Shown piece by piece: positions 28,142 through 48,880 of a stretch of 64,000 bases of DNA. The notes under the pieces are model-generated. The model was not told where the DNA came from. It saw only the letters and a list, made by a program, of their open reading frames with translations, and made no database searches. The DNA comes from Flagellimonas nanhaiensis (lineage in GTDB: Bacteria > Bacteroidota > Bacteroidia > Flavobacteriales > Flavobacteriaceae), in NCBI RefSeq assembly GCF_003382275.1, contig NZ_QTJX01000002.1, positions 1,116,001 to 1,180,000 of the forward strand. The letters run 5' to 3'. The position numbers and the translations under genes were made by a program. Numbering within the stretch: position 1 is the stretch's first letter; every line of letters begins with the position of its first letter.

Positions 28142-28161
28142 TATATATGTTTATCGTTTTA

Positions 28162-30380: not shown

Positions 30381-30405
30381 TTGGTTAACCAGATTGGTTT
30401 GTTAA
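30381..30405. promoter_or_regulatory. Operator A: tandem-palindrome site at the GntR gene promoter
   Basis: The plus strand reads TTGGTTAACCAG, A, then TTGGTTTGTTAA, two 12-bp palindromic units with a 13-bp period (the second is degenerate). It begins 20 bp before the regulator start. On the minus strand a TAAATTTA box (30403-30410) and a TTG (30427-30429) 16 bp upstream of it fit a Bacteroidota promoter, with the site overlapping the initiation region. FadR-type GntR proteins bind GT..AC palindromes of this form. Confidence 0.7.
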
Positions 30406-30528
30406 ATTTAGTCAATTTGTCCTAACCAAGAAAACATCTTTATTATTATTGTTATACCAATTAAACTTTAAGATGTTAAAAACTATTGGCCAAAAAAAAT
30501 TGGCCAATAGTTACTAAACTCAACTAAC

Positions 30529-31464
30529 TCAATGTTCAACCTGTAAGGCATAATATTTTACCACTGCCGATGTGCCTTCGTCCTTACTAATAAGGTAATT
30601 TCCTGCCTTAAAATAATTTTCAAAAACACCCCACTTTTCCATATGGATATCTTCTTTTACAAAAGATTCGTTATTATTCAATATCACCTCAATCCTACCC
30701 TCGGAAGCAATTACTTCCAATGAGAACTTTTCGGTTCCCACAGGTTCAGGAAAGCTATAAGGCACATCATCTTCCCATGCAGAAGTGTGCAACAATTCCT
30801 CATTGGACACATCTAGGTTTTTTAATTTTTTTGTGTGGACTCTTACCTTACCATCATTCCAATAAATCTTTAATACCGGGGGCGCATTATTGTCATCCTC
30901 CCCAATCAAATCTCGTTGTTCATTGGTTAATCTGCCATGTATCTGCATGATTATGGTTCGGTACTTTTTACCATTTTCATCTTCTGAAATAAAAGGAACT
31001 GAGAGTGTCCCCGTCATTCTGCCACCTTGGGCAAATGTCCAATTGATATTATTACTTCCGGGTTCCATTTGTTCCCTCAATTCTGTTCTTGAATAGGTGG
31101 AATTTGGAGTGGATGAGCCCGGAAAGGTGTAAAATACCAAAGACCCATCTGTAGAATCGTTATACATGTAAGGAAGTAAAGCTTCATTTGTAGCGTAATC
31201 CAAAATTTCTGGAGGTTTGACCTCATCTGGAGCTCCAATCGGCAAGGTTACCTTCCAATTACTTAAATCGATTTCCGGAAGTAAATAGGTTGACCCCTCA
31301 TTATCATCTGGCACAGTATCATCCACAACATCATCTTCTATGTTGCTATCTTCTGTTTGTGTGTCTTCTATAATCTCCTCAGACGATGATTCGCAACTAA
31401 AAGCACTCAAACCCATCACGAGTAGCAGAGAAAAACAGATTAGATGTGTTGTATTTGTAGTCAT
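30529..31464 (-). CDS. PL7 alginate lyase, surface lipoprotein
   Basis: 311 residues. Signal peptide with lipobox LSAFSC (Cys 24), then an acidic linker (about 28-57), likely a surface-export signal, and the PL7 jelly-roll. The catalytic regions are SRTELR (125-130), QIHG (174-177) and YFKAGNY (284-290), which supply the Arg, Gln/His and Tyr that line the active site of PL7. It cleaves alginate by beta-elimination to unsaturated oligomers. It lies at the 3' end of the SusC operon, 11 bp after the second PL7 gene. Confidence 0.95.
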   Translation of the reverse strand: MTTNTTHLICFSLLLVMGLSAFSCESSSEEIIEDTQTEDSNIEDDVVDDTVPDDNEGSTYLLPEIDLSNWKVTLPIGAPDEVKPPEILDYATNEALLPYMYNDSTDGSLVFYTFPGSSTPNSTYSRTELREQMEPGSNNINWTFAQGGRMTGTLSVPFISEDENGKKYRTIIMQIHGRLTNEQRDLIGEDDNNAPPVLKIYWNDGKVRVHTKKLKNLDVSNEELLHTSAWEDDVPYSFPEPVGTEKFSLEVIASEGRIEVILNNNESFVKEDIHMEKWGVFENYFKAGNYLISKDEGTSAVVKYYALQVEH

Positions 31465-31475
31465 CGAACTCTTGG

Positions 31476-32387
31476 TTAGTGTGTTACAGATAGTTCATAA
31501 AGTTTAACCTTGGCAAAGGCCCCTTCATCTCTGGTCTGCAAATAATTGCCCACCTTAAAATAGTTTTCAAATATTCCCCATCGTTTAATGCTGGGACTAT
31601 CATAAACAAAAAATTCATTTTTATTTAGGGATACCACCATTTTTCCTTCGGTCACCTTAACCTCAATGGTAAATTTTCTAAAACCTACCTCTTCCTCAAA
31701 GTTTCTACCCTTGTCATCAGTCCATGCTTCTTTGTACAAAATACCCTTTGGGCCCACTCCAGCAAACTTCAGAACTTTGGTCTTAACTCTTATTTTTCCC
31801 TTGTCCCAGTATATTTTTAAAATTGGTGGTGCATTGTTGTCTTTTTGTCCAATCAAATCTCTTTGTTCATTGGTCAATCTTCCATGGATCTGTGCAACAA
31901 TAACTCTATGGTGTTTGCCTTTTTTATCTCTGGTCACTTCTCCCATTGCCATTTTAGCCTTCAAATATCCACCATCCTTAAATGTCCAGTTTGCATTATC
32001 GTTTCCCGGTTGCATTTGCTCCCTTAATTCTGACCTTGAGTATTTGGTATTTGCCGTGGTTGCATTAGAAGGGTAAGCATAAAACACCAGGGCTCCCGAG
32101 GTAGAATCATTGTACATATATGGCTTTAAAGTTTCATTGTTGGCATACTCCAAAATCTCTGGAGGTTTTACACTTACGGCACCACCTTTGCCTTCACCTT
32201 CAGGGATAGTAACTTTCCAGTGGCTTAAATCAATATTTGGAAGCTTGTACTTTTTCTTTTTCCTCTTCTTCCTTTCAACTTTTGCATCGGATATAGCAAC
32301 GCCACTTTTCTTTTCCTGAGCAGAAACGTTAACTATCATGAATGCTATCATAAAAGTTGCCAGATATGTCTTTAGGAAAATCTTCAT
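31476..32387 (-). CDS. PL7 alginate lyase, secreted
   Basis: 303 residues from the ATG at 32387 (a TTG opens the frame at 32399). Signal peptide ends IVNVSAQ with no lipobox, so the product is free in the periplasm or medium. A basic linker (ERKKRKKKK) leads into the PL7 domain: SRSELREQ, QIHG and YFKVGNYLQ are all present. The sequence is close to the lipoprotein PL7 downstream, suggesting an in-operon duplication that now places one enzyme on the surface and one as a soluble protein. A short hairpin lies upstream at 32442-32472. Confidence 0.94.
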   Translation of the reverse strand: MKIFLKTYLATFMIAFMIVNVSAQEKKSGVAISDAKVERKKRKKKKYKLPNIDLSHWKVTIPEGEGKGGAVSVKPPEILEYANNETLKPYMYNDSTSGALVFYAYPSNATTANTKYSRSELREQMQPGNDNANWTFKDGGYLKAKMAMGEVTRDKKGKHHRVIVAQIHGRLTNEQRDLIGQKDNNAPPILKIYWDKGKIRVKTKVLKFAGVGPKGILYKEAWTDDKGRNFEEEVGFRKFTIEVKVTEGKMVVSLNKNEFFVYDSPSIKRWGIFENYFKVGNYLQTRDEGAFAKVKLYELSVTH

Positions 32388-32441
32388 ACTATAAATCAAT
32401 TATTAAGTACAATATTCTTCACTCTTTAAACACTGGGATTT

Positions 32442-32472
32442 AACCACCCAGCCAATTATAAACCGGGTGGTT
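32442..32472. terminator. Weak hairpin between the PKD lipoprotein and PL7 genes
   Basis: Arms AACCACCC (32442-32449) and GGGTGGTT (32465-32472) enclose a 15-base loop. It lies in the 101-bp gap of an otherwise continuous operon, so it could reduce downstream expression or protect mRNA. There is no long T-run on the minus strand. Confidence 0.4.
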
Positions 32473-32500
32473 TTGATGTATCAACAGTGTTTATTTACTA

Positions 32501-34486
32501 TTATTCAATGGTTATGTTATCATAGAAGGCCTCAGCCGTATTGTCAACAACATCAACATTCCTCACATAAATCACTATCTGGTTTGTAGATGGTGTAAAA
32601 TTGAAGCTGCTGGTCACGAATACACTTGAATCTGCATTGAAATCATTTGTGATTTCAAAGTACGCATCAACAGCACTGTCAGAAGTAGATGCATTGATTC
32701 CTACTTCATCTTCGATTTCAGTATTCAATATGAAGACATCAGTATTTGTTTGAAAGCCTGATGTACGTGAATCAATTGAAAAAGTATACGAAACTCCTTG
32801 CTGTACTTGAACTACTTGATACAAACGGCGGCTAGGTTCTTCAAGTTTTCCTCCTCTAGTGTCATTATTTCCATCACTGGTAGAACCAGGCTGTTCGCTA
32901 TTATCACCGTACTCAGTATTAAGCCAGCTATCCAAAGCACCATTGTCCCAAAGAGGATCATACGGACTAGGAATATCATTTCCATCACAATCCTTAATCG
33001 TAGAATTAGGTGTCATATCCCATGGATCGGCATTGTCCCCTGTGCTTTCTCCAGTACATCCTGCAGTTGTGCCATAAAGGTCAAAATTTCCATTTAATAC
33101 CTGTACCACAAAACCTTGAGATACGACAAGTTCCTCTGTTGCCACACTTATGTTTCCAGTTATACTTGTAGCGGTAAGGGTAACCGTGTAAATTCCGTCT
33201 TCATCATAGGTATGTGTTGGATCCATTCCGGTAAATTGGAAACCATCCCCAAATTCCCATAACAATGATTCTATCAAACCTTCAGAGGCATCCATGAAAG
33301 AAAACGTTCTATAATCACCTGGGTCCACTTGAGAAGTGAAATCAGCACTTACGGGAGCTAAAATGGTAATAGTCTGTTCCAATGAATTTGACAAACCGGA
33401 ATCATTAGTAGCAACAAGTGTTACCGTATAGGTATCGGCTACGGCGTATACGTGAGTTGGCGACTCTTCTGTTGAAACATTTCCATCACCAAAGTCCCAC
33501 TCATAGCTTGTTGCCCCAGTTGAGGAGTTTGTAAAGGTATATTCCAAGTAATTCACCTCACTCTGAGCAGATGCAAAGCCGACAGATGGAGGTACAGCAC
33601 CTTCGGCACCAACCTCAATCGTGAAGTCATCCAATCTACCTTCTACTTCACCATTGGTGAAGAAAATAGCTACTGTATTATTAGTCCCAGAATTAAAAGA
33701 CAATTTTTGTTGTAGGTAAACATCAGGCTCAGAATCATCGGTTACCGTTACAGAGGCAATGGTACCGTTAGCCACATCTTCCAATGTGGTGAAAGTGCCT
33801 CCATTTTCTGTTACCCCTAAAACTGATACTATTAACCTAGGATCGGAAGATCCACTTAACATTGTATACCAAAAACTCAGGTCATAGTTCGTATCAGGTT
33901 CTACCGTAATTTCTTGATAACCTGCCCGGTCTCCTGCCGGGGTAGGCAATTTACCGCCTTGATCACCAAAAGTGACAGGGCTTCCTGTAATCTGGATAAC
34001 GCCACCTAGATCACTGTTTCTCCATGAGTCTCTTCCATCACCGCCTCCCTCTGGTAGGGTATCATCCTCGAAACCTGCTTCCAAAATAATAGGTTGAAAT
34101 GGACCTTCAGCCACAATAACATCTATTGTAGTGGTACCTGTTACACCATTTCCATCAGTAGCGGTCAATGTTACAGCATAGGTGCCTTCACCATCTTCAA
34201 ATGTAAATGTAGGATCTTCTTCACTAGAGGTGCCATTTCCATCGAAATCCCAAGAATAAGTGGATGCCTCCGATGATAGGTTGGTAAAATTGATGATCCT
34301 AAAATCATCTGCAGAGGAAGCATATGAAAAGTTAGCTTCTGGAAATATCTCATCTACCTTAGAGTTTGCCCCTGGCAATTCGTCTCTAAAAATTTCGTCA
34401 CCTACACAGCTCACAGCAACACCAGTCACTGCCAGCAACACCAGCACCAGTTTTGTTCTACTAAATTTATTTATAATATGTTTCAT
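32501..34486 (-). CDS. PKD-domain surface lipoprotein of the alginate locus
   Basis: 661 residues. Lipobox VAVSC. Three PKD domains show the motifs YSWDFDGNGTSSEEDPTFTF, YEWDFGDGNVSTEESPTHVY and LLWEFGDGFQFTGMDPTHTY. Two beta-sandwich, carbohydrate-binding-like segments lie between and at the end (about 130-295 and 465-661). It sits immediately after SusD in the operon, where alginate loci carry surface glycan-binding proteins; PKD-domain lipoproteins are known in flavobacterial alginate operons. It likely binds alginate at the surface. No catalytic motif seen. Confidence 0.9.
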   Translation of the reverse strand: MKHIINKFSRTKLVLVLLAVTGVAVSCVGDEIFRDELPGANSKVDEIFPEANFSYASSADDFRIINFTNLSSEASTYSWDFDGNGTSSEEDPTFTFEDGEGTYAVTLTATDGNGVTGTTTIDVIVAEGPFQPIILEAGFEDDTLPEGGGDGRDSWRNSDLGGVIQITGSPVTFGDQGGKLPTPAGDRAGYQEITVEPDTNYDLSFWYTMLSGSSDPRLIVSVLGVTENGGTFTTLEDVANGTIASVTVTDDSEPDVYLQQKLSFNSGTNNTVAIFFTNGEVEGRLDDFTIEVGAEGAVPPSVGFASAQSEVNYLEYTFTNSSTGATSYEWDFGDGNVSTEESPTHVYAVADTYTVTLVATNDSGLSNSLEQTITILAPVSADFTSQVDPGDYRTFSFMDASEGLIESLLWEFGDGFQFTGMDPTHTYDEDGIYTVTLTATSITGNISVATEELVVSQGFVVQVLNGNFDLYGTTAGCTGESTGDNADPWDMTPNSTIKDCDGNDIPSPYDPLWDNGALDSWLNTEYGDNSEQPGSTSDGNNDTRGGKLEEPSRRLYQVVQVQQGVSYTFSIDSRTSGFQTNTDVFILNTEIEDEVGINASTSDSAVDAYFEITNDFNADSSVFVTSSFNFTPSTNQIVIYVRNVDVVDNTAEAFYDNITIE

Positions 34487-34503
34487 AGTATTTTTATTTT
34501 TTA

Positions 34504-35952
34504 TTAATAGCCAGGGTTTTGCGTCAAAAGCCCATCGCTCAAATTAATTTCCCTTGCCGGAATTGGCAATAGCAAATCCCTTCCGGTAAAAACATATCCC
34601 ATCTCATCAGAGTGAGCACTCAATACTTCATTGGCAACACCGAATCTAAGCAGGTCAAACCAGCGCTGGTTTTCAAACGCAAGTTCCACACGTCTTTCCA
34701 CTAAAAGTTCATCTTTGCTAACACTTGACACGCTGTTAGGAGCTGTTTCTGGAAATGCCCTATCCCGAATCATCTGAAAAGATTGTAGTGCACCTGCATC
34801 AGTTGTACTGGTACCTGTTCCTATTGTCGCTTCAACGTGCATCAACAAAACATCTGCATAACGCAAAGCTATATAGTCATTTCCAGCATCTCTGGCATTA
34901 TCCCCGTAGGTTGGAGGAGAAACCGTAATGTCCGAACCTTCGGGCAAATACTTAATCACCTCGATAGAACTTCCATAATTAATGAACGATTGCTCACCTC
35001 GATTGCCACCAAAAGCGGCAAAATCTGCCACCAGATTGTCATTTACAATGTTCTGACCATCTTCTCTTCCCTGTCGAACAAAAGATGTAAATTCAGAAGA
35101 GAAACTCTGACTTTCAAGTTGGTTTCCAAAAGCATATTGAATTGCAAATATGATCTCATCGTTCAATTCATTATAGAAAACATCGGTGAAGTTGTCCTGT
35201 AAGCTGAATTGGCCACTACTGATGATGTCTTCACAAAGTGACTTTGCCGCTGCATAATCTGGAGTTGGCAGACTCATATAAACCTTGGCCAATATGCCTT
35301 GGGCCGCCGCTCTGGAAGCTCTGGCTTTGTAGGTATTATCCAAAACGTTCACCGCCTCCTGTAAATCTTGGATTATTTGATCATAAATCAATGCGGTAGA
35401 CACCCTAGTGAAAAGGGCCTCTTTATCATCTGGAAGTAAAACTTCAGTTACCAAAGGCACATCACCAAATAACCTTACCAATTTAAAATAAGCATAGGCC
35501 CTTAAAAACTTAATCTCTGCTGTATATCGTGCCTGATTATTTGCGTCGGCCAACTCTACAAACCTGAACATGTTATTGGCTCTAAATATTACTTCATACA
35601 TTGATGCGTAATAATCCTCTGATTCGACATTATTTGCATCAACCACATATCTATGAAAATCAGATTTGGAACCTTCCAAGGTTGCATTTCTGGTATTATC
35701 TGTTCTATGTTCTGTTAATAGATGTTCAAATTGCACACCTCTATTAGCATCACCTATGTTTGTCTCTGTATTTTCATTGACCCCTTGAAGGGCATCGTAA
35801 ATTCCAATGATACCTGCTTCAACATCAGCATCAGTCTGAAAAAATGACTCTTCGACTACCACCGAGTCCGGTAACGGATTCAAAAACTCGTCTGTATCAC
35901 ACGACATGAAGACCATTGTCAATGTGAGTACTATATACTTTATATATTTCAT
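34504..35952 (-). CDS. susD: SusD-family outer-membrane lipoprotein
   Basis: 482 residues. Lipoprotein signal with lipobox VFMSC. The SusD fold is seen in the N-terminal TPR-like helices (LRAYAYFKLVRLFGDVPLVTE) and in the C-terminal signature (ELAFENQRWFDLLRFGVANEVL, LLPIPAREINLSDGLLTQNPGY). It caps the SusC channel and binds alginate oligosaccharides. The gene lies 18 bp after the SusC stop. The substrate is inferred from the surrounding lyases. Confidence 0.95.
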   Translation of the reverse strand: MKYIKYIVLTLTMVFMSCDTDEFLNPLPDSVVVEESFFQTDADVEAGIIGIYDALQGVNENTETNIGDANRGVQFEHLLTEHRTDNTRNATLEGSKSDFHRYVVDANNVESEDYYASMYEVIFRANNMFRFVELADANNQARYTAEIKFLRAYAYFKLVRLFGDVPLVTEVLLPDDKEALFTRVSTALIYDQIIQDLQEAVNVLDNTYKARASRAAAQGILAKVYMSLPTPDYAAAKSLCEDIISSGQFSLQDNFTDVFYNELNDEIIFAIQYAFGNQLESQSFSSEFTSFVRQGREDGQNIVNDNLVADFAAFGGNRGEQSFINYGSSIEVIKYLPEGSDITVSPPTYGDNARDAGNDYIALRYADVLLMHVEATIGTGTSTTDAGALQSFQMIRDRAFPETAPNSVSSVSKDELLVERRVELAFENQRWFDLLRFGVANEVLSAHSDEMGYVFTGRDLLLPIPAREINLSDGLLTQNPGY

Positions 35953-35970
35953 AATTTTCTTTTTGTTTTT

Positions 35971-38900
35971 TTAAAAATCTACGTTAAGACCAAGGGTCAC
36001 CGTTTTAAAAATTGGTGTACCGGCCCTTTGAGAGCCATACGCCCTTACGTTGCCGTTGTCGTCATGTTCAGGGTTAAAACCATGATAGTCATCTGCGGTT
36101 ATGTACAGAAGATTCTGAGCAGTAGCATATAGTCTAACATTAGAAATGCCTATTTCGGAGAATATATCACTATCAAAATTGTAGCCTACATTAATGTTTC
36201 TCAACGAAAAGTAATCAGCACTTGCAATTACCTCACTGGTCAATACTTTTTCCTGTATGAAAGAGGCATGTGGAACTAAACCGTCCGCAACGGCTTGTGC
36301 CTCACCGCCACTTCTGGTTCTATTACCAAACCAATTGAAGAAATATTGATCTCCAATATTGTTTACTTGGGCCCCCAAACTTCCTTGCACCATGAACGAT
36401 AGATCAAAATTTCCAAATTGGAACTCGTTGGTGAAGCTATATATCAAATCTGGATATGGGTCACCAAGAATCGTTTTATCGTCTTCTGTAATAATGCCAT
36501 CTCCGTTTAAGTCGACAACAATGGTATCATCAGATTGTCCGTTAATCCTGTTCCAAGGATTGTCCACGTAGGTAGTCCTAAATTCGGTCTCATCAAATGC
36601 CTCGGTATCCACTACATAACCCCAGAATGAAGAAATAGGTTCTCCTATTCTGTTTATCCACTGTGAATTTCTACCATATGTATCTTCAATCAGTGCATTA
36701 TTGGAGTCTCCAAAACTTAATAGCTCATTTTGGTTGGTAGAAGCAATCAATGTAGAGCTCCATCGAAAGTTCTCTTTCATAATGTTTCTGGTCCTAAGCT
36801 CAAATTCCACCCCTCTATTTTGAACCTCACCTAGGTTTACAATACCACCATTAAAACCGGTTAGGTAAGAAACTGGATTTTCCAACAAAAGGTCATCACT
36901 ATTTCTTTGATAATAATCAATGGACCCAGAGATTCTATTGTTCCAAAAACCGTAATCCAAACCAACGGTGAATTCTTCGGAAGCCTCCCATCCTAAATCG
37001 GCATTCGCAATATTTAATGGAGATGAACCCGAAACCAAAGAGCCATTAACAACAGCATTGGTATTCTGCAATAATGATAGGTAAGGCCATATGGTTTCTT
37101 CAAGGGTGTCAAGATTAAAGTTTTCAGCGCCAGTTAAACCATAACTAGCCCTTAACTTTAAATTATTTACTAATTCACTGTTCAACAAGAAACTTTCCTT
37201 AGCAACATTCCAACCTACGGATACTGCGGGGAAATTACCCCATTTGGTGTTGTTTCCAAAAACAGAACTACCATCTCTACGGAAAGATGCATTCAATAAG
37301 TATTTATCCTTATAAGCGTAGTTTACCCTTGCGAACATACCTATTTTCTTACGCTCACCATTATTTTGAATAGCGGTTAGGTTATCAGGATTACCTCCAT
37401 TGATGTTTCTTAAACGATCATCTGTAAAACCATTTATCTCAACCTCGCTTATTTCGGTTTTACGTTGTTGTACGGTTAAACCGCCCAACAAGTTCAAACT
37501 ATGATCTCCAAAATCTTTGTTGTAGTTTAAGGTATTATCATTTACTATTCTCGTTCTAAAACGATTCTGCAAGTAGAAATTAGAACGGCTTGCCCCAGAA
37601 GCATGGTAGTTTACACCATCATATCTGTCCCTTCTTCGTTGCTCCAAAGTAATACCAACGGAAGTTTTTGCTGTTAAGCCATCTGCCAGTTTATAGCTCA
37701 AATAAGAAGAACCGAACAACTTTGTGTTAAACTCATAATGTTGTCTCTCAACATATTGTTGAAACGGATTGGAATCACCAGACGTACGGGGTCTTTCGTT
37801 ATTGCCATCATTATCAAAATCCATGTTGACCAAATGGTTTTCCCAGAAGTAATCCCCCACATCAACATCAGGATATACATCACGATTGATGTACTGTAAT
37901 GTTTCCTCTGTGTGGTATATGGGTAACCATGGGGACTGCCGAGTTGGATTGTGTATGGAGGTGGGCAACCTTCTTTGTTCTGTATACGAAGGAGACGCTC
38001 TAAGACCAAATTTCAGTCTTTTTCCAATCTTGGTATCAAATTTTAAGTTTGCGGTGTATAATTGATAATCGTCGGTAATAACAACTCCCTCGTCACTCAA
38101 AGCTCTTAAAGAAGCGCTAAAAGTAGAATTCTCATTCCCACCACGAGCTGATAGTGAATGACTTGTTACTATTCCTCCATCAAAGAAGACATCTTGCCAG
38201 TCTCTGTTGATACCTGTGGTCTCAACAATGTCCAAAGCGTATAGAGTTTCTCCAGAAAGTGTTCCCGTTGCTGCCTGTTCTATAGCTGCCCATTCCTTAA
38301 GGTCCTTTTTATAATCGTCACTTCCATGAGCTTGCTTATATCCTGTGTAGGTTTGATAGCTGAATTGTGTCTTGCCTTCCCTACCACTTTTAGTTGTTAT
38401 CAAAATAACACCATTAGCACCTTCACTACCATAAATTGATGCAGATGCAGCATCTTTAAGTATTTCGAAGGATTCTACATCATTCATATCAATATTGGCA
38501 AGAAACTCTGAGCTAACCACGATACCGTCCACAACTAATGCGGGACCAGAGTCTGCATTAATGGATCCAACACCCCGAATGGTAATAGTGGGCGCGCCTC
38601 CTGCTTCTGCATTTGTTGCTTGGATATTTACCCCAGATACTTGACCAATCAAAGCATCATCAACCCTTGATACGGCTATTTGGTCCAAAGTTTCATTAAC
38701 CACTTTGGATATAGACCCCGTTACTGTTGATTTTCTTTGTGTGCCATATCCGATAACCACAACCTCATCCAATTGGCTGGTATCTTCCAGAAGTGTAATA
38801 TCTATTGTTGATTGTCCATTAATAATGACAGTCTGGGTAGCGTAACCGAGATACGAAAACTGCAATACCTCATCGGTGGAAACCGTTAAAGAGTAGTTGC

Positions 38901-39075
38901 CGTCAAAATCGGTCTGGGTACCTCTTGTTGTGTTGAGCACGATAACATTTACCCCCGGGATCGGGAAGGTATCTGCTCCTTTTACGACCCCGGATACTGT
39001 ATAAGATTCCTGGGCTATTGATTGGAGACTGACGAGCAATATCCCAATCAATATTAGTTTTGATCTAAAATTCAT
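35971..39075 (-). CDS. susC: SusC-family TonB-dependent outer-membrane receptor
   Basis: 1034 residues from the ATG at 39075 (the frame opens at a TTG at 39093). Signal peptide (LIGILLVSLQSIAQ), carboxypeptidase-regulatory-like domain (about 20-105), TonB-box region DEVVVIGYGTQRK, plug domain (about 115-225, with ALIGQVSGVNIQATNAEAGG, ILKDAASASIYGSEGANGVI) and a ~800-residue barrel ending TVTLGLNVDF. It imports alginate oligomers with energy from TonB. It heads the operon SusC, SusD, PKD lipoprotein, PL7, PL7. An operator lies about 275 bp upstream with a hairpin between. Confidence 0.95.
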   Translation of the reverse strand: MNFRSKLILIGILLVSLQSIAQESYTVSGVVKGADTFPIPGVNVIVLNTTRGTQTDFDGNYSLTVSTDEVLQFSYLGYATQTVIINGQSTIDITLLEDTSQLDEVVVIGYGTQRKSTVTGSISKVVNETLDQIAVSRVDDALIGQVSGVNIQATNAEAGGAPTITIRGVGSINADSGPALVVDGIVVSSEFLANIDMNDVESFEILKDAASASIYGSEGANGVILITTKSGREGKTQFSYQTYTGYKQAHGSDDYKKDLKEWAAIEQAATGTLSGETLYALDIVETTGINRDWQDVFFDGGIVTSHSLSARGGNENSTFSASLRALSDEGVVITDDYQLYTANLKFDTKIGKRLKFGLRASPSYTEQRRLPTSIHNPTRQSPWLPIYHTEETLQYINRDVYPDVDVGDYFWENHLVNMDFDNDGNNERPRTSGDSNPFQQYVERQHYEFNTKLFGSSYLSYKLADGLTAKTSVGITLEQRRRDRYDGVNYHASGASRSNFYLQNRFRTRIVNDNTLNYNKDFGDHSLNLLGGLTVQQRKTEISEVEINGFTDDRLRNINGGNPDNLTAIQNNGERKKIGMFARVNYAYKDKYLLNASFRRDGSSVFGNNTKWGNFPAVSVGWNVAKESFLLNSELVNNLKLRASYGLTGAENFNLDTLEETIWPYLSLLQNTNAVVNGSLVSGSSPLNIANADLGWEASEEFTVGLDYGFWNNRISGSIDYYQRNSDDLLLENPVSYLTGFNGGIVNLGEVQNRGVEFELRTRNIMKENFRWSSTLIASTNQNELLSFGDSNNALIEDTYGRNSQWINRIGEPISSFWGYVVDTEAFDETEFRTTYVDNPWNRINGQSDDTIVVDLNGDGIITEDDKTILGDPYPDLIYSFTNEFQFGNFDLSFMVQGSLGAQVNNIGDQYFFNWFGNRTRSGGEAQAVADGLVPHASFIQEKVLTSEVIASADYFSLRNINVGYNFDSDIFSEIGISNVRLYATAQNLLYITADDYHGFNPEHDDNGNVRAYGSQRAGTPIFKTVTLGLNVDF

Positions 39076-39270
39076 TTGTTTAGTTAGTTTCAATTATTCT
39101 TGTTGTTCAGTTAAAATTCGATTCACATTGTGCATAGTGATTGCCTCATAAATCTCTGCCAACCACTACAATTCTCTTAAAATCAAATGAATTCCGTAGT
39201 TTTGTGTTGACAGCTACCTATAAGGTGAGCTTGTTAACGTATTACTTCCCTCCAAAGAAGTGATATCTAC

Positions 39271-39298
39271 AAAAGGATAGGCGTGCACCTATCCTTTT
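39271..39298. terminator. Strong hairpin in the SusC leader
   Basis: An 11-bp stem with arms AAAAGGATAGG (39271-39281) and CCTATCCTTTT (39288-39298) around CGTGCA. A seven-T run follows on the plus strand and only four T on the minus strand, so it is a better plus-strand terminator. It could also end transcripts of the cupin operon, or attenuate the SusC leader. Confidence 0.55.
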
Positions 39299-39349
39299 TT
39301 TGTTGGTCTATGTTTTCATATTTTGTTGTTTTCTTATTGGTATTCCAAA

Positions 39350-39374
39350 CTGGTCAACCAATTTGGTTTACCAA
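39350..39374. promoter_or_regulatory. Operator B: tandem-palindrome site upstream of SusC
   Basis: The plus strand reads CTGGTCAACCAA, T, then TTGGTTTACCAA: two 12-bp palindrome-like units with a 13-bp period. The minus strand has a TATATTTG box (39372-39379) directly against it. The extended sequence matches operator C almost base for base (see 46880), which argues for the same regulator. Predicted binding site of the GntR-family protein encoded at 29659. Confidence 0.75.
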
Positions 39375-39496
39375 ATATATGTTATCAAAGCGTTAAAAAA
39401 AAATGATTTTATCATTTAAGTGTTAAAATTTTGAGGACTTAATAGATTTGTTTAGTTTAAGACGTTTATGGTTAAACAAAACCATTGTTCCGTAAA

Positions 39497-39847
39497 CTAG
39501 GACTGCATGAAATCCTCACGAATCGGGCTGAAAACATCGATTAAAATCCCTGATTTTTTGCAGATTGCACCATGCATTACATGCGGAGGGATATAAAATG
39601 CATCTCCGCCTTTCATAATTTTGGTTTCCTCACCAATAGTAAGTTCAAATTCACCGCTTTCAACATAGGTTACTTGTGAATGATAATGCTCGTGCATGGG
39701 ACCAATTCCCCCAACATCAAAATGGACCTTTACCAACATGATCTTATCGTCGTATCCCATAATTTTCCGCTTCACGCCTTCTCCAACCACCTCCCATTCA
39801 ATGTGGTCATCCATTAAAAATTCTTTGCTTGCTCCAAATGTTTCCAT
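39497..39847 (-). CDS. kdgF: KdgF-type cupin, uronate ring-opening enzyme
   Basis: 116 residues, a single cupin barrel. The metal ligands are seen as H52, H54, Q58 (in HEHYHSQ) and H92, with PPHVMHG closing the second motif. KdgF converts the cyclic 4,5-unsaturated monouronate released by alginate (and pectin) lyases to the linear ketone, here DEH. It lies 8 bp after the PL17 stop, in the lyase operon. Cytoplasmic (no signal peptide). Cupins are numerous and this call rests on motif and context. Confidence 0.88.
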   Translation of the reverse strand: METFGASKEFLMDDHIEWEVVGEGVKRKIMGYDDKIMLVKVHFDVGGIGPMHEHYHSQVTYVESGEFELTIGEETKIMKGGDAFYIPPHVMHGAICKKSGILIDVFSPIREDFMQS

Positions 39848-39854
39848 AATTCTG

Positions 39855-42104
39855 TTATTGTTTAGTTTTAATGAAATGGTAAGGCCCAGTCCATTGATAG
39901 TTTTTATTGTTAATGGTAAGTGTGTGTTTCTTGTCTTTTAAAGGGTTTTTATTTGATAGAATAAACAACCCTACTTTTCCCTCTACATTTTCAATGGTCA
40001 CGGCGGTGTAATCGGAAGAGTCGTGAACCACTTGCAATTCCGCAATACCACTGTTTGAATCAACCGAGAATTCAGAAACAGGGCTATAACTACCATGAGA
40101 TTCTATGGTCGACACAAATACAGTGTTTTTGCTGTTTTTTCTTCTAATCAGTAAACTGGCGTCTCTTCTAAGGTTAAATTCAGGATCATTGGCTCCCAAT
40201 CTAGTAAAGAGCATTTCATCATTTTTATGGATCACAGAGGTTAGCGTGTAAAATTTGTTGTTACGCAACCACGAAAGTTTAGTGTTTTTTGTTTTAGGCT
40301 TTCCTTTTCCTTCTATATAGAGATGTTGATAACCGTTATCGGTCCCCAATGCTCCTAAGTCGGAGGGTGAACTATAGTCAAAATTCACTTTCATGACCTG
40401 TCCCAAAAAATGAAAGGGCAGATCATATTGGTTTTCTGTTTGGGCACTTACCCTTAAAAGATCCAGCACTACTGGCTTTTCAAAATCTTCAAAACTGAGC
40501 AATGCCATGGTTCGATGCATTTTGGTACCCGGGTAGGCATTGTTTTCCTTTGCGCTCACCACCTGTACATTTTTATCAGACACATCATAGAAATAAAGCT
40601 CTGAATGGTGCTGACTTCCTATTTCATATTCACCATTAAAATGTGAAGTTTCGTTTTGTACCAAGGTGTTATGGGCAATAGTCTGCTTGGCCCAGGTTGT
40701 GTTTTCCCTTAAATAATTTCCTCCCCCTTTTTGTTCAATATTGACGAAACGCGCCATACCGTAATCTTGCAAAACATCCATACCCTCGTCATACAGCATA
40801 AAGGATAGTTTGTCATAATGGCCATGACTTAATCCATGGGCAGTATATTTAAATACTAGTTCGAGCTTGTCTTCACGTAGCACGGTAATTCCTCCCTGTT
40901 TGCCATCCGGACCATCGGATAGATGAATGGACTGTTTCTTAAAAGACTCTGTTTTATCCTCGCGAATACCCAGTGCAACAGATAGCCCTGAATCATCCAA
41001 GATCACCCTATCCTGTTTTTCTGAAATGCTTAGCAATCTAGGGTCGCTTCCACCATAGTGATAGGCAATGTTAACCGCAGTGACCAACTCACGGGAATAG
41101 TATGACATACCCTTTTGAGCATCGTTCAAAGGAAAAAAATCCCCGTCCTCATTCGAGAGGTTGATAAGCGCATTGACCGATTTTAATAGTACACTGTCCT
41201 TATGTTGAAAAATTTTAAGCTCCGGTTTTACATTGTGGAGTCCAACTGCAAAAATCAAAAATGGATACATGGCATATCTTTGATAATACGGTCCTTCGGT
41301 ATAATACCCATCAGGAGAGAAAGGTTCTTCGAGATTGGCCAAAAACCCTGCTTTGCCCTGCGTTTTGATAAAGCCCCCATCGTTATCCTTGGCATCGGCA
41401 TCAAGACCATCATCCTCAATGCCGTACAATGCTCTCTGTATGAGCTCTTCATCGCCCATTACCAATCCGATCATGCCCACAGCAGCATTCCCCCAGGTAC
41501 TATGGTTATGAACCCGATTAAAGAATTGTGGGTTCTCCGTGGATATGAAATCAGCGAAAGGTCGGAACAGATTCTTTTCAAGCTGTTGGCGCTCTTTCTT
41601 TGATAGCCAATCATAAATACAATCATAGGCTTGGCTAACGTACACCAACCAATTGCTATCGTTCAAACATTGCCAAAACAGTTTTCCCCGAGCATAGGAC
41701 CGTTCCTTTGGGTGCACTGGCAAGTCTTTATATAATGCTTCGTACTGAAAAAGCATATCCCTAACATAAACTGCATATTTTTCATCTTGTAAAATCTGAA
41801 AAAGAACCCCAGCTTTTTGAAGAATTAAAAAATTACGCTTGTGCCGTTCGTGGGTATAACCACCAGAATAATCCTTTGGGACGGGTGTATCTATACCCAA
41901 AGCGATTTCTGCATCAACTTCTTCTTGTATTATTTTTAAGGATGCATCAAACAGTGGAACCTTACCTAGCTCTGCCCTGATCTTTTCTACCCCTCTTTTG
42001 GTCAGAATAAGATTTGGATGCTCCTGAGCCAATACCATATATGAACTGAACACCATTAGTATGCAGCCTAGGGTTTTTGTAGCTCGAAGTATTGTGTTTC
42101 CCAT
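39855..42104 (-). CDS. PL17 oligoalginate lyase
   Basis: 749 residues. Signal peptide ends SSYMVLAQ. An alpha/alpha toroid N-terminal domain with the catalytic pair N200-H201 in RVHNHSTWGNA, the conserved Tyr in YYTEGPYYQRY (about 267-277), then the heparinase-II/III-like domain with HGLSHGHYDKLSF (about 430-450) and a C-terminal beta-sandwich. PL17 enzymes act on oligomers exolytically, releasing unsaturated monomer, the step before KdgF, whose gene follows 7 bp downstream. It is 7 bp after the PL6 gene. Periplasmic. Confidence 0.93.
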   Translation of the reverse strand: MGNTILRATKTLGCILMVFSSYMVLAQEHPNLILTKRGVEKIRAELGKVPLFDASLKIIQEEVDAEIALGIDTPVPKDYSGGYTHERHKRNFLILQKAGVLFQILQDEKYAVYVRDMLFQYEALYKDLPVHPKERSYARGKLFWQCLNDSNWLVYVSQAYDCIYDWLSKKERQQLEKNLFRPFADFISTENPQFFNRVHNHSTWGNAAVGMIGLVMGDEELIQRALYGIEDDGLDADAKDNDGGFIKTQGKAGFLANLEEPFSPDGYYTEGPYYQRYAMYPFLIFAVGLHNVKPELKIFQHKDSVLLKSVNALINLSNEDGDFFPLNDAQKGMSYYSRELVTAVNIAYHYGGSDPRLLSISEKQDRVILDDSGLSVALGIREDKTESFKKQSIHLSDGPDGKQGGITVLREDKLELVFKYTAHGLSHGHYDKLSFMLYDEGMDVLQDYGMARFVNIEQKGGGNYLRENTTWAKQTIAHNTLVQNETSHFNGEYEIGSQHHSELYFYDVSDKNVQVVSAKENNAYPGTKMHRTMALLSFEDFEKPVVLDLLRVSAQTENQYDLPFHFLGQVMKVNFDYSSPSDLGALGTDNGYQHLYIEGKGKPKTKNTKLSWLRNNKFYTLTSVIHKNDEMLFTRLGANDPEFNLRRDASLLIRRKNSKNTVFVSTIESHGSYSPVSEFSVDSNSGIAELQVVHDSSDYTAVTIENVEGKVGLFILSNKNPLKDKKHTLTINNKNYQWTGPYHFIKTKQ

Positions 42105-42111
42105 CCTATTT

Positions 42112-44460
42112 TTAGCTTTTGATCAATCCCAAGTCGCTCCCATCGGTTCCCTTTCCTTTTAAAACGGAATCTCCACTTAAGTTATATGACTGGTCGTCCA
42201 TGAATCCAGGGGACAAGGACCATAAGTTTTCAACGGTATATTTTTGATCTCCTGTGACTTCGAGTTTATCCGATCTGTAAAAATTGTTGTTAGCCACTTT
42301 TACAATGGGTTCCCCCACCACCAAGTGCATATTTATACCCTTACTATTGTCAAATATGTTGTTCTTGATATCAATTTCCTGTACCCCATAAAGCGAAACG
42401 GCCGCACCATACTTATTCCGCTTGTCGTGCCCAACATTATCCAAAACATTATGTGCCATTTGCAAAAAGGGACCAAAGGTACTTTCATCTTTTCCTCCAC
42501 GGTGCAATCTAAGTACCGCACCTCCAACTCCATTGAAGACATTATTTTTGAGGATTACATACTCCGCATTGTATATTCCTATATCATCGGTCTCTTTATC
42601 CAAAGCGATCACATTGCCAGAGATGGTCTTAAATCTAGAGTTCTTGATGCTAATGGTATCAGCAAATGTATTCTTATACACCCGGATGGCATCATACGAA
42701 TGATTCACATCCAAATTCACAAAATCACAGTTATCTACAAACAACTTGTAATTTTTGTTCATAGAGTATTTGCTAGTGGTTATTACCGAATTTCCTGTTC
42801 TGTCCGGAGATGCTTCCCCATCAAAAATGATGTTTTCCAAACTAAGGCTTCCACCATTCTGGATTTCGAAGAGCGACTTCTTTTCAAACAAAATTTTGGC
42901 TTTATTGCCTGTTGTACCCCTAAAGGTCAGTGGATGTTTGATGGCAATACTTTTTGTGAGGGTGTACGGTTCTCCGGAATCCAGCTCAAGAATATCGCCA
43001 GGCTCCGAGCTTTCAACAGCCTCGAACAGGCTATTAAGGCCTGCTGCTACTTGAATTGTTTTTCCCGAGGAAAGCAACACATCACTAGTCTTCTTAGAAT
43101 ACCATGAAACACCGGTATTTTGCTTAGTAGCAATTTCAGAGCTGAGTTTTGCGCCGGTTTTTAGTGTTGCATCAGCAGGGACCAAAAGACCATTTTCATT
43201 TTCTTCCAGTTCCAATTCCAACTTGGTGAAGCCCGATTCTGAGATTGAATTTACATTTGGACTGATAATGTTGTTTTGGAAATTGATTCCACTGATATCG
43301 TCATATACCGTAAAAAGGTTATCGCGTTTCTCATTGTAAAAAATATTGTCCGCCACAACACAGTTTTCTGGCGGAGCATTCCGTTCTGCATCTGCCCCAG
43401 CACACAATTGAACGTGATCACAATTTATAAAAGTGTTGTTCTTTACAACCGCATCCTTTGCTTGATCATATCTATTGATTGGGGAATTGTAGATGCCGTT
43501 CATGATTACAAAGGCTCCCCTAAAGCGATATCCTGTGAGCCCAATGCCATAATTATTGGTTACCGTCTGTTTTCCATTAATGACCCGTATGCCTCCAGTT
43601 GATGGTTTACCATTGCCAATAAAAACATTTCCGTCTACAAGTGTTCCTTCACCATGGCGCATGGTCAATGTTCCGATACATTCATAAAACACGTTGTTTT
43701 TATATGTATTCTGCCCAGACTTATTTGAGATAATCTCGTGCTCCCCATCGCATTGATCAAAATAATTTGCTTCTACAAGAGTGTTTGAATTGGTACGGGA
43801 AAAATGGCTGGTGCCTATCCGCAAAGTTTCGCCGCCATTCGACCCTAGGTTTGGCCTTGGTCCAAAATAGTTGTGGTCAATTTTATGATGGTTTTCTTGA
43901 TGTTCTTTCCCATTGAGCCTAACAATCATGGTGACCCCTCTATTTCTTTTACCAACCAAATGGTTGTGGTCCACACGGTTGTTTTTTCCATATATGGCCA
44001 CCCAGGTATCAGGTTCATGGCGCTCAGGATTGTTATAATCGTCTATTACGCATTCTGTTACCCTACTATTTATAGCGAAAGAGTTCCGGTCTTTTTTGAA
44101 AGAGATCACCTCTGTAGTCGGAGTAAAACCATTTTTGAAAACCAAGCCTTCCACATGGAGATATTGGCCGGCCATTCGGAGATTTGAAGCTCCTTCTAAG
44201 CTTACTTTCCCTTTTTCTTCAACTGTCAAGGTAATCGGTTTCTCTTTGGTTCCATTCCCCTCGAACAATAATTCAGCATCTTCCCATACCCCATTTGCCA
44301 GAACAATTACATCCCCAGGTTGGGCATTGGCTACAGCATTGTCAAAATCTTCCATGGTGTTCACCAAAGTACCATCAACCCTTTGTTCTTTGCAGGATTG
44401 AAGACCCGTAAAAAAAGTGGTCACTATAGCTAAGGATAAAAATATTCTAAGTTGTTTCAT
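42112..44460 (-). CDS. PL6 alginate lyase, lipoprotein with two beta-helix domains
   Basis: 782 residues. Lipobox TGLQSC. The N-terminal parallel beta-helix (about 30-400) carries the PL6 site: N208 in NLGSNGGETLRIG, E240 and E242 in CDGEHEIIS, K247 in NKSGQ and R268 in MRHGEG. The spacing (39, 7, 5 and 21 residues between the ligands and the Lys/Arg) equals that of the PL6 enzyme AlyGC as I remember it (N181, E213, E215, K220, R241: calcium ligands and catalytic base/acid). A second beta-helix (about 480-780) follows. It degrades alginate to short products. Confidence 0.94.
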   Translation of the reverse strand: MKQLRIFLSLAIVTTFFTGLQSCKEQRVDGTLVNTMEDFDNAVANAQPGDVIVLANGVWEDAELLFEGNGTKEKPITLTVEEKGKVSLEGASNLRMAGQYLHVEGLVFKNGFTPTTEVISFKKDRNSFAINSRVTECVIDDYNNPERHEPDTWVAIYGKNNRVDHNHLVGKRNRGVTMIVRLNGKEHQENHHKIDHNYFGPRPNLGSNGGETLRIGTSHFSRTNSNTLVEANYFDQCDGEHEIISNKSGQNTYKNNVFYECIGTLTMRHGEGTLVDGNVFIGNGKPSTGGIRVINGKQTVTNNYGIGLTGYRFRGAFVIMNGIYNSPINRYDQAKDAVVKNNTFINCDHVQLCAGADAERNAPPENCVVADNIFYNEKRDNLFTVYDDISGINFQNNIISPNVNSISESGFTKLELELEENENGLLVPADATLKTGAKLSSEIATKQNTGVSWYSKKTSDVLLSSGKTIQVAAGLNSLFEAVESSEPGDILELDSGEPYTLTKSIAIKHPLTFRGTTGNKAKILFEKKSLFEIQNGGSLSLENIIFDGEASPDRTGNSVITTSKYSMNKNYKLFVDNCDFVNLDVNHSYDAIRVYKNTFADTISIKNSRFKTISGNVIALDKETDDIGIYNAEYVILKNNVFNGVGGAVLRLHRGGKDESTFGPFLQMAHNVLDNVGHDKRNKYGAAVSLYGVQEIDIKNNIFDNSKGINMHLVVGEPIVKVANNNFYRSDKLEVTGDQKYTVENLWSLSPGFMDDQSYNLSGDSVLKGKGTDGSDLGLIKS

Positions 44461-44531
44461 GTCAATTTATGTTATATGACTGATTTTAAAATGTATGTGC
44501 GGCACAACATGGCCGTTTCAATATTAAAAAA

Positions 44532-46778
44532 TCAATCGAGCTTTATTGTTACCATTTCACCAGGCATGATCGGTGCCATTTCTTTTTTCTTTGAGTTCCT
44601 ATAAGATATCTCAGCAGTCATCTGGTTTGCAACCAGCGACTTGATTTTCAATTGATTTTCTTTTTGTTCTAAATAAACGTCCGCTCTTTCGGAAAACTTT
44701 ATTTGGATATTTCCTTTTGATATGGAATCCACCGAAAAGAAAAAATGTTTTGGACCATTGGTGATTGAAACAGAATCAGGTCCCACAGTCGACCAAGGGG
44801 AAACATTGAGTACCCAATCACCAAAATAGGTTTTCCCCTCTGATTGACCAATGACGTTTAGATAACTATCAAAAGGTAAAATAATGGTGACAAATTCAAA
44901 TTCGTCAACATTGTTTTTGGTCATTATTGTCCATTCCTTCCCTCTTTTACCCTGGGTATCAATACTATCAACACTATTGAGCTGAAATATGGAACACCCC
45001 GAACCATTTTCAAAAGATGATAAAATATGATTTGGTGCCTGCTCCATGGTATAGTGACCTTGCCAAACCTGCCTGAAATCACGTTTTTCCTCCGATTTGA
45101 AATTATCCTTGATAATCCAGAAGTTTTTCTTTAAGAAAATTACCTGTCTTGAATATTGGGTGTCGATATCTTCAAACCCGTTGTGTGTGCCAACAAAAAG
45201 ATCCATTTCTTCGGTTGAATTCCAAACCAAAACTTTGGGATGCGGCAATCTGCCAAATTTTCCAAAACCGGTTCTACCCTTGTTCGGAGTCCAAATTTTG
45301 CCCTGCAGTTCATCATCTACCAAGGCCACATTTTTTACCATGGAATTTTTAAAGAGCTGAAAATCGTCCAAAGAGTACCTAACCAAATAATTGGGTAAGA
45401 TAACTTTGCCATTGGCCCATGCTTGAACTCCAAGCATGTCCCCATGCTGGTGATCCGGTTTCTTATCATCCAAACCAGCAGTAACTATCATTACATTGGA
45501 ATCTTGTTCCCATCCATCCCTCATGATAAAATAACCGGTATCATGAAAGGCAACAGAACCAATATCAGGCTTTTGAGTTTTTATCTCCTTCAATTCTTCC
45601 AACTTCTCCTTATTTACAAACCAGTAAAGCTCATGGTTCAGCCTATCATCTGCAAAATACCCCATAACGGGATCTTTGAACAGCAAATAGCCCAATGCCA
45701 TAAAATCTGATATAATGTTTCGCTCTGCCCATGGACGATCTGTATCATCTTGTAATGCAGGAGCAGTGCCATCGGGGTATGCCACTTTGGTCAATGTTGT
45801 AAAAAGTGCATTCATCTTGTTGGTCCATATCTCGCTAACCTCTTGTTTGTTCAACATTGCCAACTGATACACATAGAAATAATTTTCAATATCACTCAAG
45901 TGGTAATGAAGAGAGCGCTCAAATTGAAATCCATCATCATTTATCTCTGCTTTCAAATGTTCTTCCAAGATTTTCATGGAATGGTGGTACCATTTTTCTG
46001 TATCTTCGAAATCCCTGAATAGTATGCTAACCATAGCCAGTGCGGACATTCCCCTTGTTTGATGGTTTCCTGGAACAAACTCTGGATTGGATTCATACAA
46101 CTCCGCAGCGGTTTGTAGCAAAGTTGCAATAGTGTTCAATTGCTCCTCATCGCTATACGCGGTCTCTCCCAAAAACATATTGTGAATCTGCAGCCAGTTG
46201 AGTATTCTATACCCCGACCTTAGACCCTCGTAAACACCATTCCCGGTAGATGATGTTTCAAATTCATTTGCGGTTAATGCAGCGTTCAAAGATGATTTTT
46301 GCTTTAAAAAGTATTCAATAAATTTTGGGTCTTTCTCTTGGTAGAAATAGCTAAAAGCAATGTCCAGCATTTTGTGTTGCCTAGCCAAATGCCTAAAGGA
46401 GTAGGTATCCAAAGGCTTACCAGTTTTGTCATTAAATGGAAGCTGCCATTTGGTTTGGGCCTCAAATCGTTCCATATGCTCCGAAGCCCTCCTTAGATGA
46501 CTTGCCTTTCTATCTTTATACAAATCTTTATAAAGTTTAAAGCGTACCTCAAAATTTTTCCAATCATAAAAATATCTTTCGGAAAAAACTTGTCTAAAAT
46601 ATTTTGCCAAATGGGATGCGGTAGGTGTCTCAGAGCCTAGTAAATCTATTCTCTGTTCTTTTTTTAGGTATTTGTGTAAATCTGAATTCGAAATAATCTC
46701 AGTCGAAGAAATCTCTTGGCCCATAAGGCCCATTGTGGTTAAAAGAAACAGAATCGTTAAAATTCTTTTAGCTTTCAT
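44532..46778 (-). CDS. Heparinase-II/III-like polysaccharide lyase, PL family not assigned
   Basis: 748 residues from the ATG at 46778 (frame opens at a TTG at 46805). Signal peptide ends TTMGLMGQ. An alpha-helical toroid (YFYDWKNFEVRFKLYKDLYKD; GNHQTRGMSALAMVSILF carries an Asn-His pair like that of PL17) is followed by a beta-sandwich with DHQHGDMLGVQAW and a Tyr in SFRHLARQHK. It resembles heparinase-II/III families (PL15, PL17, PL39) but I cannot place it. First gene of the operon with PL6, PL17 and KdgF, so alginate is the likely substrate. Driven by operator C. Confidence 0.8.
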   Translation of the reverse strand: MKAKRILTILFLLTTMGLMGQEISSTEIISNSDLHKYLKKEQRIDLLGSETPTASHLAKYFRQVFSERYFYDWKNFEVRFKLYKDLYKDRKASHLRRASEHMERFEAQTKWQLPFNDKTGKPLDTYSFRHLARQHKMLDIAFSYFYQEKDPKFIEYFLKQKSSLNAALTANEFETSSTGNGVYEGLRSGYRILNWLQIHNMFLGETAYSDEEQLNTIATLLQTAAELYESNPEFVPGNHQTRGMSALAMVSILFRDFEDTEKWYHHSMKILEEHLKAEINDDGFQFERSLHYHLSDIENYFYVYQLAMLNKQEVSEIWTNKMNALFTTLTKVAYPDGTAPALQDDTDRPWAERNIISDFMALGYLLFKDPVMGYFADDRLNHELYWFVNKEKLEELKEIKTQKPDIGSVAFHDTGYFIMRDGWEQDSNVMIVTAGLDDKKPDHQHGDMLGVQAWANGKVILPNYLVRYSLDDFQLFKNSMVKNVALVDDELQGKIWTPNKGRTGFGKFGRLPHPKVLVWNSTEEMDLFVGTHNGFEDIDTQYSRQVIFLKKNFWIIKDNFKSEEKRDFRQVWQGHYTMEQAPNHILSSFENGSGCSIFQLNSVDSIDTQGKRGKEWTIMTKNNVDEFEFVTIILPFDSYLNVIGQSEGKTYFGDWVLNVSPWSTVGPDSVSITNGPKHFFFSVDSISKGNIQIKFSERADVYLEQKENQLKIKSLVANQMTAEISYRNSKKKEMAPIMPGEMVTIKLD

Positions 46779-46879
46779 AGCATCCGGTAGGTTTTCTGCG
46801 ACCAAATTGTTGTGGGCTGGCGATGGTCATTATTAATAGCTATTTCGGTTTTGAATGATTGTTCAAAAAAGCCCTTCAA

Positions 46880-46919
46880 TTGGTCAACCAAATTGGTTAA
46901 CCAAATATATGTATATTTG
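46880..46919. promoter_or_regulatory. Operator C and divergent promoter between the lyase operon and the 46.95-kb operon
   Basis: The plus strand reads TTGGTCAACCAA (46880-46891), A, then TTGGTTAACCAA (46893-46904): two perfect or near-perfect palindromes, 13-bp period. The minus-strand box TATATTTG is at 46902-46909 (toward the heparinase-like gene). A plus-strand TATATTTG box is at 46912-46919, with TTG 16 bp upstream (46893-46895), so both promoters overlap the operator. This explains the start choice for the plus-strand gene at 46950. Confidence 0.75.
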
Positions 46920-47855: not shown

Positions 47856-47861
47856 GCTAAT

Positions 47862-48857: not shown

Positions 48858-48880
48858 ACCTACCGAAAGAACTAGTTTTT

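Follow-up and report, generated by a model that had tools for sequence, protein, structure and literature searches.

Gene content of the locus

The 64,000-nucleotide stretch of Flagellimonas nanhaiensis DNA analyzed here (the window) contains three sets of tandem palindromes among genes for alginate breakdown, and it raises the question of which protein reads these sites and how it acts on the adjoining promoters. Our answer is that the window very probably contains an alginate polysaccharide utilization locus under an AusR-type GntR/FadR-FCD repressor, whose stacked operators are fused to the promoters. The genes concerned are as follows.

24735..29430, minus strand: MFS transporter, two SDR oxidoreductases, KDG-kinase-like protein and KDPG aldolase, behind the regulator gene
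29659..30360, minus strand: GntR/FadR-type regulator, AusR-like, 233 aa, with GntR HTH and FCD domain
30529..32399, minus strand: two PL7-type alginate lyases, 30529-31464 and 31476-32399 (Pfam Alginate_lyase2)
32501..34486, minus strand: PKD-domain protein (Pfam)
34504..35952, minus strand: susD-like lipoprotein (profile matches)
35971..39075, minus strand: susC, SusC/RagA TonB-dependent transporter (NCBIfam TIGR04056 above cut-off; ATG at 39075 in frame)
39497..39847, minus strand: cupin, KdgF-like (sequence matches)
39855..42104, minus strand: PL17 oligoalginate lyase (PDB 7bjt, 1260 bits, 731 residues)
42112..44460, minus strand: PL6-type alginate lyase (Pfam PF14592; solved alginate lyases match)
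44532..46805, minus strand: heparinase II/III-fold protein, first gene after site C (PDB matches distant only)
46950..49600, plus strand: divergent operon of two TIM-barrel proteins and an RraA-like protein (sequence matches, frame check)

The second PL7-type lyase (31476-32399) also matches solved alginate lyases. The divergent operon likely starts with the TTG at 46950, which opens a frame with a signal-peptide-like beginning.

In the regulator, both the Pfam GntR and FCD domains score above the gathering threshold. Residues R41, R51, R55, D151, H155, H200 and H222 are invariant in 79 regulator sequences; we take the three arginines to correspond to the base-contacting arginines of FadR, and the other four residues presumably correspond to the metal ligands of the FCD domain. 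The protein shares a common domain plan and related solved structures with FadR, LldR, NanR and PdhR, but it scores far under each curated NCBIfam cut-off (LldR 125 of 311 bits, NanR 112 of 260, PdhR 92 of 330 and FadR 38 of 189), and its presumed sites differ from theirs by the 13-bp stacking. FadR sites have three central bases, whereas the palindrome found here has two.

Operator arrays and promoter boxes

The putative operators and the -7 boxes next to them lie at the following positions.

30381..30405, minus strand: site A, beside the regulator gene; a good palindrome at 30381-30392 followed by a unit with a broken half-site
39337..39374, minus strand: site B, triplet ahead of the susC operon; three palindromes in 13-bp steps
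46880..46904, strand not assigned: site C, doublet between the divergent operons
30403..30410, minus strand: regulator-promoter -7 box, TAAATTTA; overlaps site A
39372..39379, minus strand: susC-promoter -7 box, TATATTTG; TTG common to box and operator
46902..46909, minus strand: lyase-operon -7 box, TATATTTG; fused with site C
46912..46919, plus strand: divergent-operon -7 box, TATATTTG; read from the window sequence

The original prediction described three 25-bp sites, each made of two palindromes with a 13-bp period. The positions and the period held, with two corrections: site B is a triplet, its third palindrome being TTGGTATTCCAA at 39337-39348, again 13 bp off, and site A has a degenerate second unit (TTGGTTTGTTAA) with a broken half-site. 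The form TTAACAAACCAATCTGGTTAACCAA is frequent ahead of gntR in relatives, as at site A. The nearly identical minus-strand context claimed for sites B and C was confirmed, since ACATATATTTGGT is found in both. As for the TAnnTTTG-type box said to touch each site, it is present at sites B and C, and at site A the box is TAAATTTA instead of TAnnTTTG, a form that is also common ahead of gntR in relatives. In all 69 susC arrays of relatives (69/69), a TAnnTTTG -7 box is fused to the first half-site.

Among 79 loci, adjacent palindromes no more than 60 bp apart showed a spacing of 13 or 26 bp in 149 of 151 pairs. The copy number varies by promoter: susC has mostly triplets, the regulator gene has a damaged unit, and three quadruplet arrays were found by sequence. 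The tandem arrangement had been suggested to place two dimers on one face of the helix or to reflect cooperative binding. Placement on one face was rejected on geometrical grounds, because at 10.5 bp per turn 13 bp corresponds to 1.24 turns, or about 86 degrees; 26 bp corresponds to about 171 degrees.

The pattern TTGGTYAACCAANTTGGTYWACCAA, derived from the sites themselves, matches only sites B and C at ≤3 mismatches, and dinucleotide shuffling of the window, repeated 100 times, yielded no match at this threshold. A relaxed 25-mer, loosened to admit site A, matched only sites A, B and C in the 4.03-Mb genome at ≤1 mismatch and two more places at 2 mismatches; at ≤3 mismatches on both strands of the whole genome, 22 matches were found versus 11 for the reversed pattern. 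The lone exact palindrome TTGGTNNACCAA occurs at 17 sites genome-wide versus 15 for the reversed pattern, that is, at chance level, and thus only the tandem form is informative. Accordingly, the lone palindrome was rejected as a genome-wide marker. Fourteen of its sites lie outside the window, and all 12 of those examined are inside long open frames.

Co-occurrence of the motif and the regulator

We searched 299 Flavobacteriaceae genomes for the 25-mer (≤1 mismatch) and for close relatives of the GntR protein (E ≤ 1e-60). The motif was present in 69 genomes and the protein in 73; 68 genomes had both, five the protein only, one the motif only and 225 neither, whereas the reversed pattern was found in 3 of the 299. 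Fisher's test gave a value of 4e-60, which overstates independence because the genomes are related. All five protein-only genomes (5 of the 73 with the protein) have tandem sites at 2 mismatches, a threshold applied to seven genomes only. The expected association of the motif with a GntR/FCD gene in related genomes was therefore borne out. The motif was not equally frequent at unrelated genes, because six of seven regulator-distant sites, picked by hand from places found in other genomes, adjoin lyase-type or susC genes; the remaining one is at a shikimate-kinase-like gene.

Within 120 bp upstream of gntR, a palindrome (≤1 mismatch) was found in 53 of 78 loci, compared with 2.2% of random windows. 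In 17 of the 78 loci, no palindrome was found in this interval even at ≤2 mismatches, and thus autoregulation would not be universal.

A model for the switch and its alternatives

Judging from these sequence features, the tandem sites are most likely the docking sites of the cluster's own GntR-type repressor. In the proposed mechanism, repressor dimers would bind the 12-bp palindrome TTGGTNNACCAA. The palindromes themselves follow each other head to tail every 13 bp: the regulator gene has one and a damaged one, susC has three, and the gap separating the lyase operon from the TIM-barrel operon has two. Their first half-site forms part of the TAnnTTTG -7 box. The predicted extent of the arrays is about -7 to +18 or +31 relative to the presumed start; a repressor bound there is proposed to block the promoter directly. 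Alginate breakdown products bound in the FCD domain would release the repressor. At gntR, the damaged half-site falls on TAnnTTTA, a weaker box; this would be consistent with a repressor supply that is low and limits itself weakly.

One rival explanation is that the protein activates at least some promoters rather than solely repressing. For the plus-strand promoter at site C, the predicted extent of the array is about -44 to -20, and this promoter shows no good -33 box. However, the remaining three promoters have their -7 box and presumed start overlapped by the array, the position of a repressor, and papers citing the AusR work refer to it, in the passages concerned, as a repressor. Activation is accordingly very improbable, though slightly less so than the idea that another regulator traveling with the alginate locus binds the arrays while the GntR protein has other targets. 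In favor of the latter, genome G061 carries a motif-like site and no regulator at E ≤ 1e-60, but that site is isolated, being the single place found even at ≤3 mismatches. The motif co-occurs with the GntR protein and, in most of the loci examined, an operator lies at the regulator's own gene; moreover, AusR binding has been published, as cited by others in the passages available. We regard a different regulator as very improbable. That the repeats are chance or a non-functional sequence family might be argued from the chance-level count of single palindromes; this is contradicted by the shuffles, the genome-wide counts, the strict spacing, the promoter fusion and the co-occurrence, and can practically be dismissed.

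Comparison with the Zobellia system

Repression by the cluster's own GntR protein would have a precedent. Zobellia galactanivorans has an alginate utilization system with the regulator AusR, reportedly described by Dudek et al. in 2020 (NAR 48:7786). In the available passages on that system, AusR binds operators present once, twice or three times at alginate gene promoters (PMC7874173), and its parts include PL17, PL7, PKD and SusD-like components. The window resembles this partial description in that a GntR-family gene lies inside the alginate locus, operator copies (sites A-C) stand at alginate promoters, and PL17, PL7, PKD and SusD-like components are present. Furthermore, the PL17 lyase of the window matches 7BJT, listed as AlyA3, a link to the Zobellia system. 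The present locus differs in belonging to another genus, and the likeness is judged from the published description, as far as it was available, rather than from protein or operator sequences; no entry labeled Zobellia was among the best 120 of thousands of matches in each protein search. We infer orthology with AusR, and the operator-regulator system is well supported as a new example of a switch already described in a relative, Zobellia. The -7 box fusion, the 13-bp rule and the quadruplet arrays come from the present sequence analysis. According to partial accounts, which include no operator sequence, Bacteroides eggerthii and Vibrio sp. C42 also have a GntR-family gene within the alginate locus, as here, whereas Vibrio alginate loci differ in having other transporters and several gntR genes.

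A model published for a single species is thereby extended in the direction of a rule for the whole family, with sharply testable features, namely, the 13-bp stacking, the fusion of half-site and -7 box, and the promoter-dependent copy number. Alginate regulons, including unlinked lyase genes, thus become readable from genome sequence.

A leader RNA upstream of susC

The interval between operator and susC contains a further element, conserved among relatives.

39239..39302, minus strand: conserved two-hairpin leader RNA

Hairpin 1 is terminator-like, and hairpin 2 has a strongly conserved GGAGGGAAGTA stretch. The leader is nearly restricted to regulator-bearing genomes (57/58), and the window's own leader has a better fold than any of 200 shuffles (z -4.26). 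A longer conserved structure was rejected; only hairpins 1 and 2 persist in 35 leaders of 230-310 nt. Rfam models searched against 23000-57000 did not match the leader, the sole match being a weak one elsewhere (SNORD81, E 0.36, 45875-45948). Across its own genome, the search for the hairpins gave one strong match only; two weak matches (E 0.01 and 0.03) overlap on opposite strands, look like an ordinary hairpin and were discarded. Among the literature matches listed, titles and abstract openings contained no susC leader RNA of this type, and one listed paper mentions structured leaders in general.

We tentatively suggest, giving it somewhat less than an even chance, that the leader is a regulatory RNA not yet described and peculiar to operons for alginate uptake, acting at the RNA level, for example through attenuation or mRNA stability, so that the operator would be only the first half of the susC switch. 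The leader may be a more novel feature than the operator design. If functional, it would represent a second control layer in polysaccharide uptake, one absent from the available literature passages.

The leader alignment (A1) comprised 65 of 70 leaders (69 relatives and the window). L051, L067, L076 and L077 lack the hairpin-2 match and were left out, the divergent L014 was removed by hand, and L040, L053 and L065 had their coordinates corrected manually. Loci were oriented by susC; L148 has no susC start in the locus and was assumed to be on the plus strand, and for the short L162 the position was set by hand.

The 3' arm of hairpin 1 may alternatively pair with the loop of hairpin 2, for which the sequences of L024, L035 and L046 are suggestive.

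Tandem palindromes in the alginate locus

The three sites predicted to be operators of the GntR/FadR-type regulator are present in the window, and they lie among the following genes and elements.

29659-30360, minus strand: gntR, the regulator gene (233 aa); behind it, an MFS transporter, two SDRs, a KDG-kinase-like protein and KDPG aldolase
30381-30405: site A, at gntR
39302-39239, minus strand: two-hairpin leader between array B and susC
39337-39374: site B; behind it, susC, susD, a PKD protein and two PL7-type lyases
46880-46904: site C, between divergent operons; on the minus strand, a heparinase II/III-fold protein, a PL6-type enzyme, a PL17 oligoalginate lyase and a KdgF-like cupin; on the plus strand, two TIM-barrel proteins and an RraA-like protein

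Each site had been described as two palindromes. This is correct for site C, a perfect doublet (TTGGTCAACCAA-A-TTGGTTAACCAA). At site B, an additional palindrome (TTGGTATTCCAA, 39337-39348) lies one step beyond the other two, so that the site is a triplet. Of the two units at site A, one is good, and in the other a half-site is broken. The 25-mer, two 12-bp palindromes with a 13-bp period, was absent from shuffled windows (0/100). The only genome-wide matches to a relaxed 25-mer with up to one mismatch were sites A, B and C; at up to three mismatches, 22 matches were found on both strands, versus 11 for the reversed pattern. The single exact palindrome was at chance level genome-wide (17 versus 15 for the reversed pattern); 14 copies are outside the window, and all 12 with fetched loci sit within long open frames.

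The regulator has GntR-HTH and FCD domains and scored below every curated subfamily cut-off listed. Across 79 regulator sequences, the positions that we take to match the arginines with which FadR contacts bases, and those taken as metal ligands of the FCD domain, are invariant. For the heparinase II/III-fold protein (44532-46805, the first gene of the lyase operon), solved heparinases are only distant (best E about 2e-11). An Nramp-type metal transporter gene at 23452-24729 is often close to gntR in relatives.

Arrays in related loci

The best 80 of 343 relatives found gave 79 loci, a sample biased towards close relatives. Among palindromes with up to one mismatch paired within 60 bp, the spacing was 13 bp in 114 cases, 26 bp in 35 and another value in two. 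Chains with units of up to three mismatches gave 140 arrays, three of them in the window itself; 78 were doublets, 59 triplets and 3 quadruplets. The 137 arrays of relatives are before susC (69; 53 triplets, 13 doublets and 3 quadruplets), before gntR (49) or before other locus genes (11). The remaining 8 are unassigned, and among these the array at 4306 in locus L061 is seemingly inside a susC frame and probably arose by chance. The outer two units are weaker in the four-palindrome arrays at 13-bp steps before susC (L039, 575-625; L046, 4942-4992; L053, 612-662).

The TAnnTTTG promoter box was fused to the first half-site in all 69 susC arrays of relatives. Before gntR the box was TAnnTTTn in 48 of 49 arrays and TAnnTTTG in 7, and the consensus there, TTTAAC, harms box and half-site alike. 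The best palindrome within 120 bp upstream of gntR had up to one mismatch at 53 of 78 loci, two at 8 and at least three at 17; 2.2% of random 120-bp windows contained a palindrome with up to one mismatch.

Co-occurrence of the motif and the regulator

The original prediction had proposed a search for the 25-mer in related genomes, and the result agrees with it. We surveyed 299 Flavobacteriaceae genomes from 236 genera for the regulator (E <= 1e-60; 73 genomes) and the 25-mer with up to one mismatch (69 genomes; reversed control, 3). Both were found in 68 genomes, the regulator alone in 5, the motif alone in 1 and neither in 225. All five regulator-only genomes have arrays at two mismatches, and the motif-only genome has a single isolated site. 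In two genomes of one genus with a more diverged regulator (51-52% identity), three stacked palindromes are immediately upstream of its gene (G094:C42:80497-80534 and G297:C24:36184-36221).

Seven distant sites, on contigs other than that of the regulator, were hand-picked from the listed places. Three are at a PL6-type gene (L176, L181 and L182), one at a PL7-type gene (L180) and one at susC (L177); at L178, the gene resembles a polysaccharide lyase only weakly, scoring under the cut-off of its Pfam family, and a PL6-type gene comes next. At L179 (5087-5111), the doublet overlaps the start of a shikimate-kinase-like frame, and may be either a chance occurrence or an additional regulon member.

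Possible mode of repression and relation to AusR

In F. psychrophilum, the TAnnTTTG box is reported to occupy -12 to -5 (PMC9723704). Computed by hand on the assumption that this position applies here, array B would cover -7 to +31, and array A, like array C relative to its minus-strand promoter, -7 to +18. Relative to the plus-strand promoter, array C would cover about -44 to -20. The simplest reading is occlusion of the core promoter by a repressor bound to the predicted operator. Two dimers on one face of the DNA had been suggested; a 13-bp step is a turn of about 86 degrees, so adjacent dimers would not be on the same face, and this suggestion fails. The strict step argues for a putative dimer contact or DNA-mediated cooperation.

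Papers that cite the original AusR study describe this GntR protein of Zobellia galactanivorans as repressing most of the alginate genes, bound to operators in single, double or triple copies and released by degradation intermediates (PMC8286568, PMC7874173, PMC8073546). The PL17 enzyme of the window matches the structure PDB 7bjt (1260 bits across 731 residues), which is listed as AlyA3 (PMC8618178); AlyA3 is named as a PL17 component of the Zobellia system (PMC8073546). The regulator is likened to AusR by these published descriptions; no Zobellia-labelled protein was among the 120 best listed in each of three protein searches. By description, we file the arrays and regulator as a further example of the AusR type.

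A two-hairpin leader before susC

Hairpin 1 of the leader is AAAAGGATAGGT-GCAC-GCCTATCCTTTT and hairpin 2 is ACTTCTT-TGGA-GGGAAGT; both were found again in 65 of 70 leaders, a few strongly diverged. Among 63 distinct sequences, 92.9% of the pairing cells were paired, versus 44-53% with partners slid, and 8 of 19 pairs changed on both sides, versus 2-4, six of the eight depending on 1-4 sequences each. Further pair types were not above shuffles (15 versus 14.5; 260/500), the RNAalifold covariation term was small (-0.22), columns 19/34 were unpaired in 27 of 63 sequences, and three pairs of hairpin 2 had no variation. The loop length of hairpin 2 is variable, which argues for an RNA element rather than a DNA-binding site. 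Rfam gave no match at the hairpins.

The leader model had one strong match in this genome and matched in 58 of the 299 genomes, 57 with the regulator; under filters stricter than in the other searches, 16 of the 73 regulator genomes had no match. The sole match without the regulator (G257, E 2.7e-4) is near a sigma-factor gene, with no array within the 10 kb fetched. Where loci were fetched, an operator (up to two mismatches) was upstream in 30 of 30 and the fused box in 29 of 30. Because structured leaders have been reported in another flavobacterium (PMC9723704) and, in Bacteroides, RbpB is described as rearranging the 5' UTR of a susC mRNA (PMC11697453), an RNA-level layer of control at the susC leader is plausible but unproven. 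In three relatives (L024, L035 and L046), the loop of hairpin 2 is able to pair with the 3' arm of hairpin 1 plus the linker, and changes on the two sides seem to match; this pairing is a possible alternative fold.
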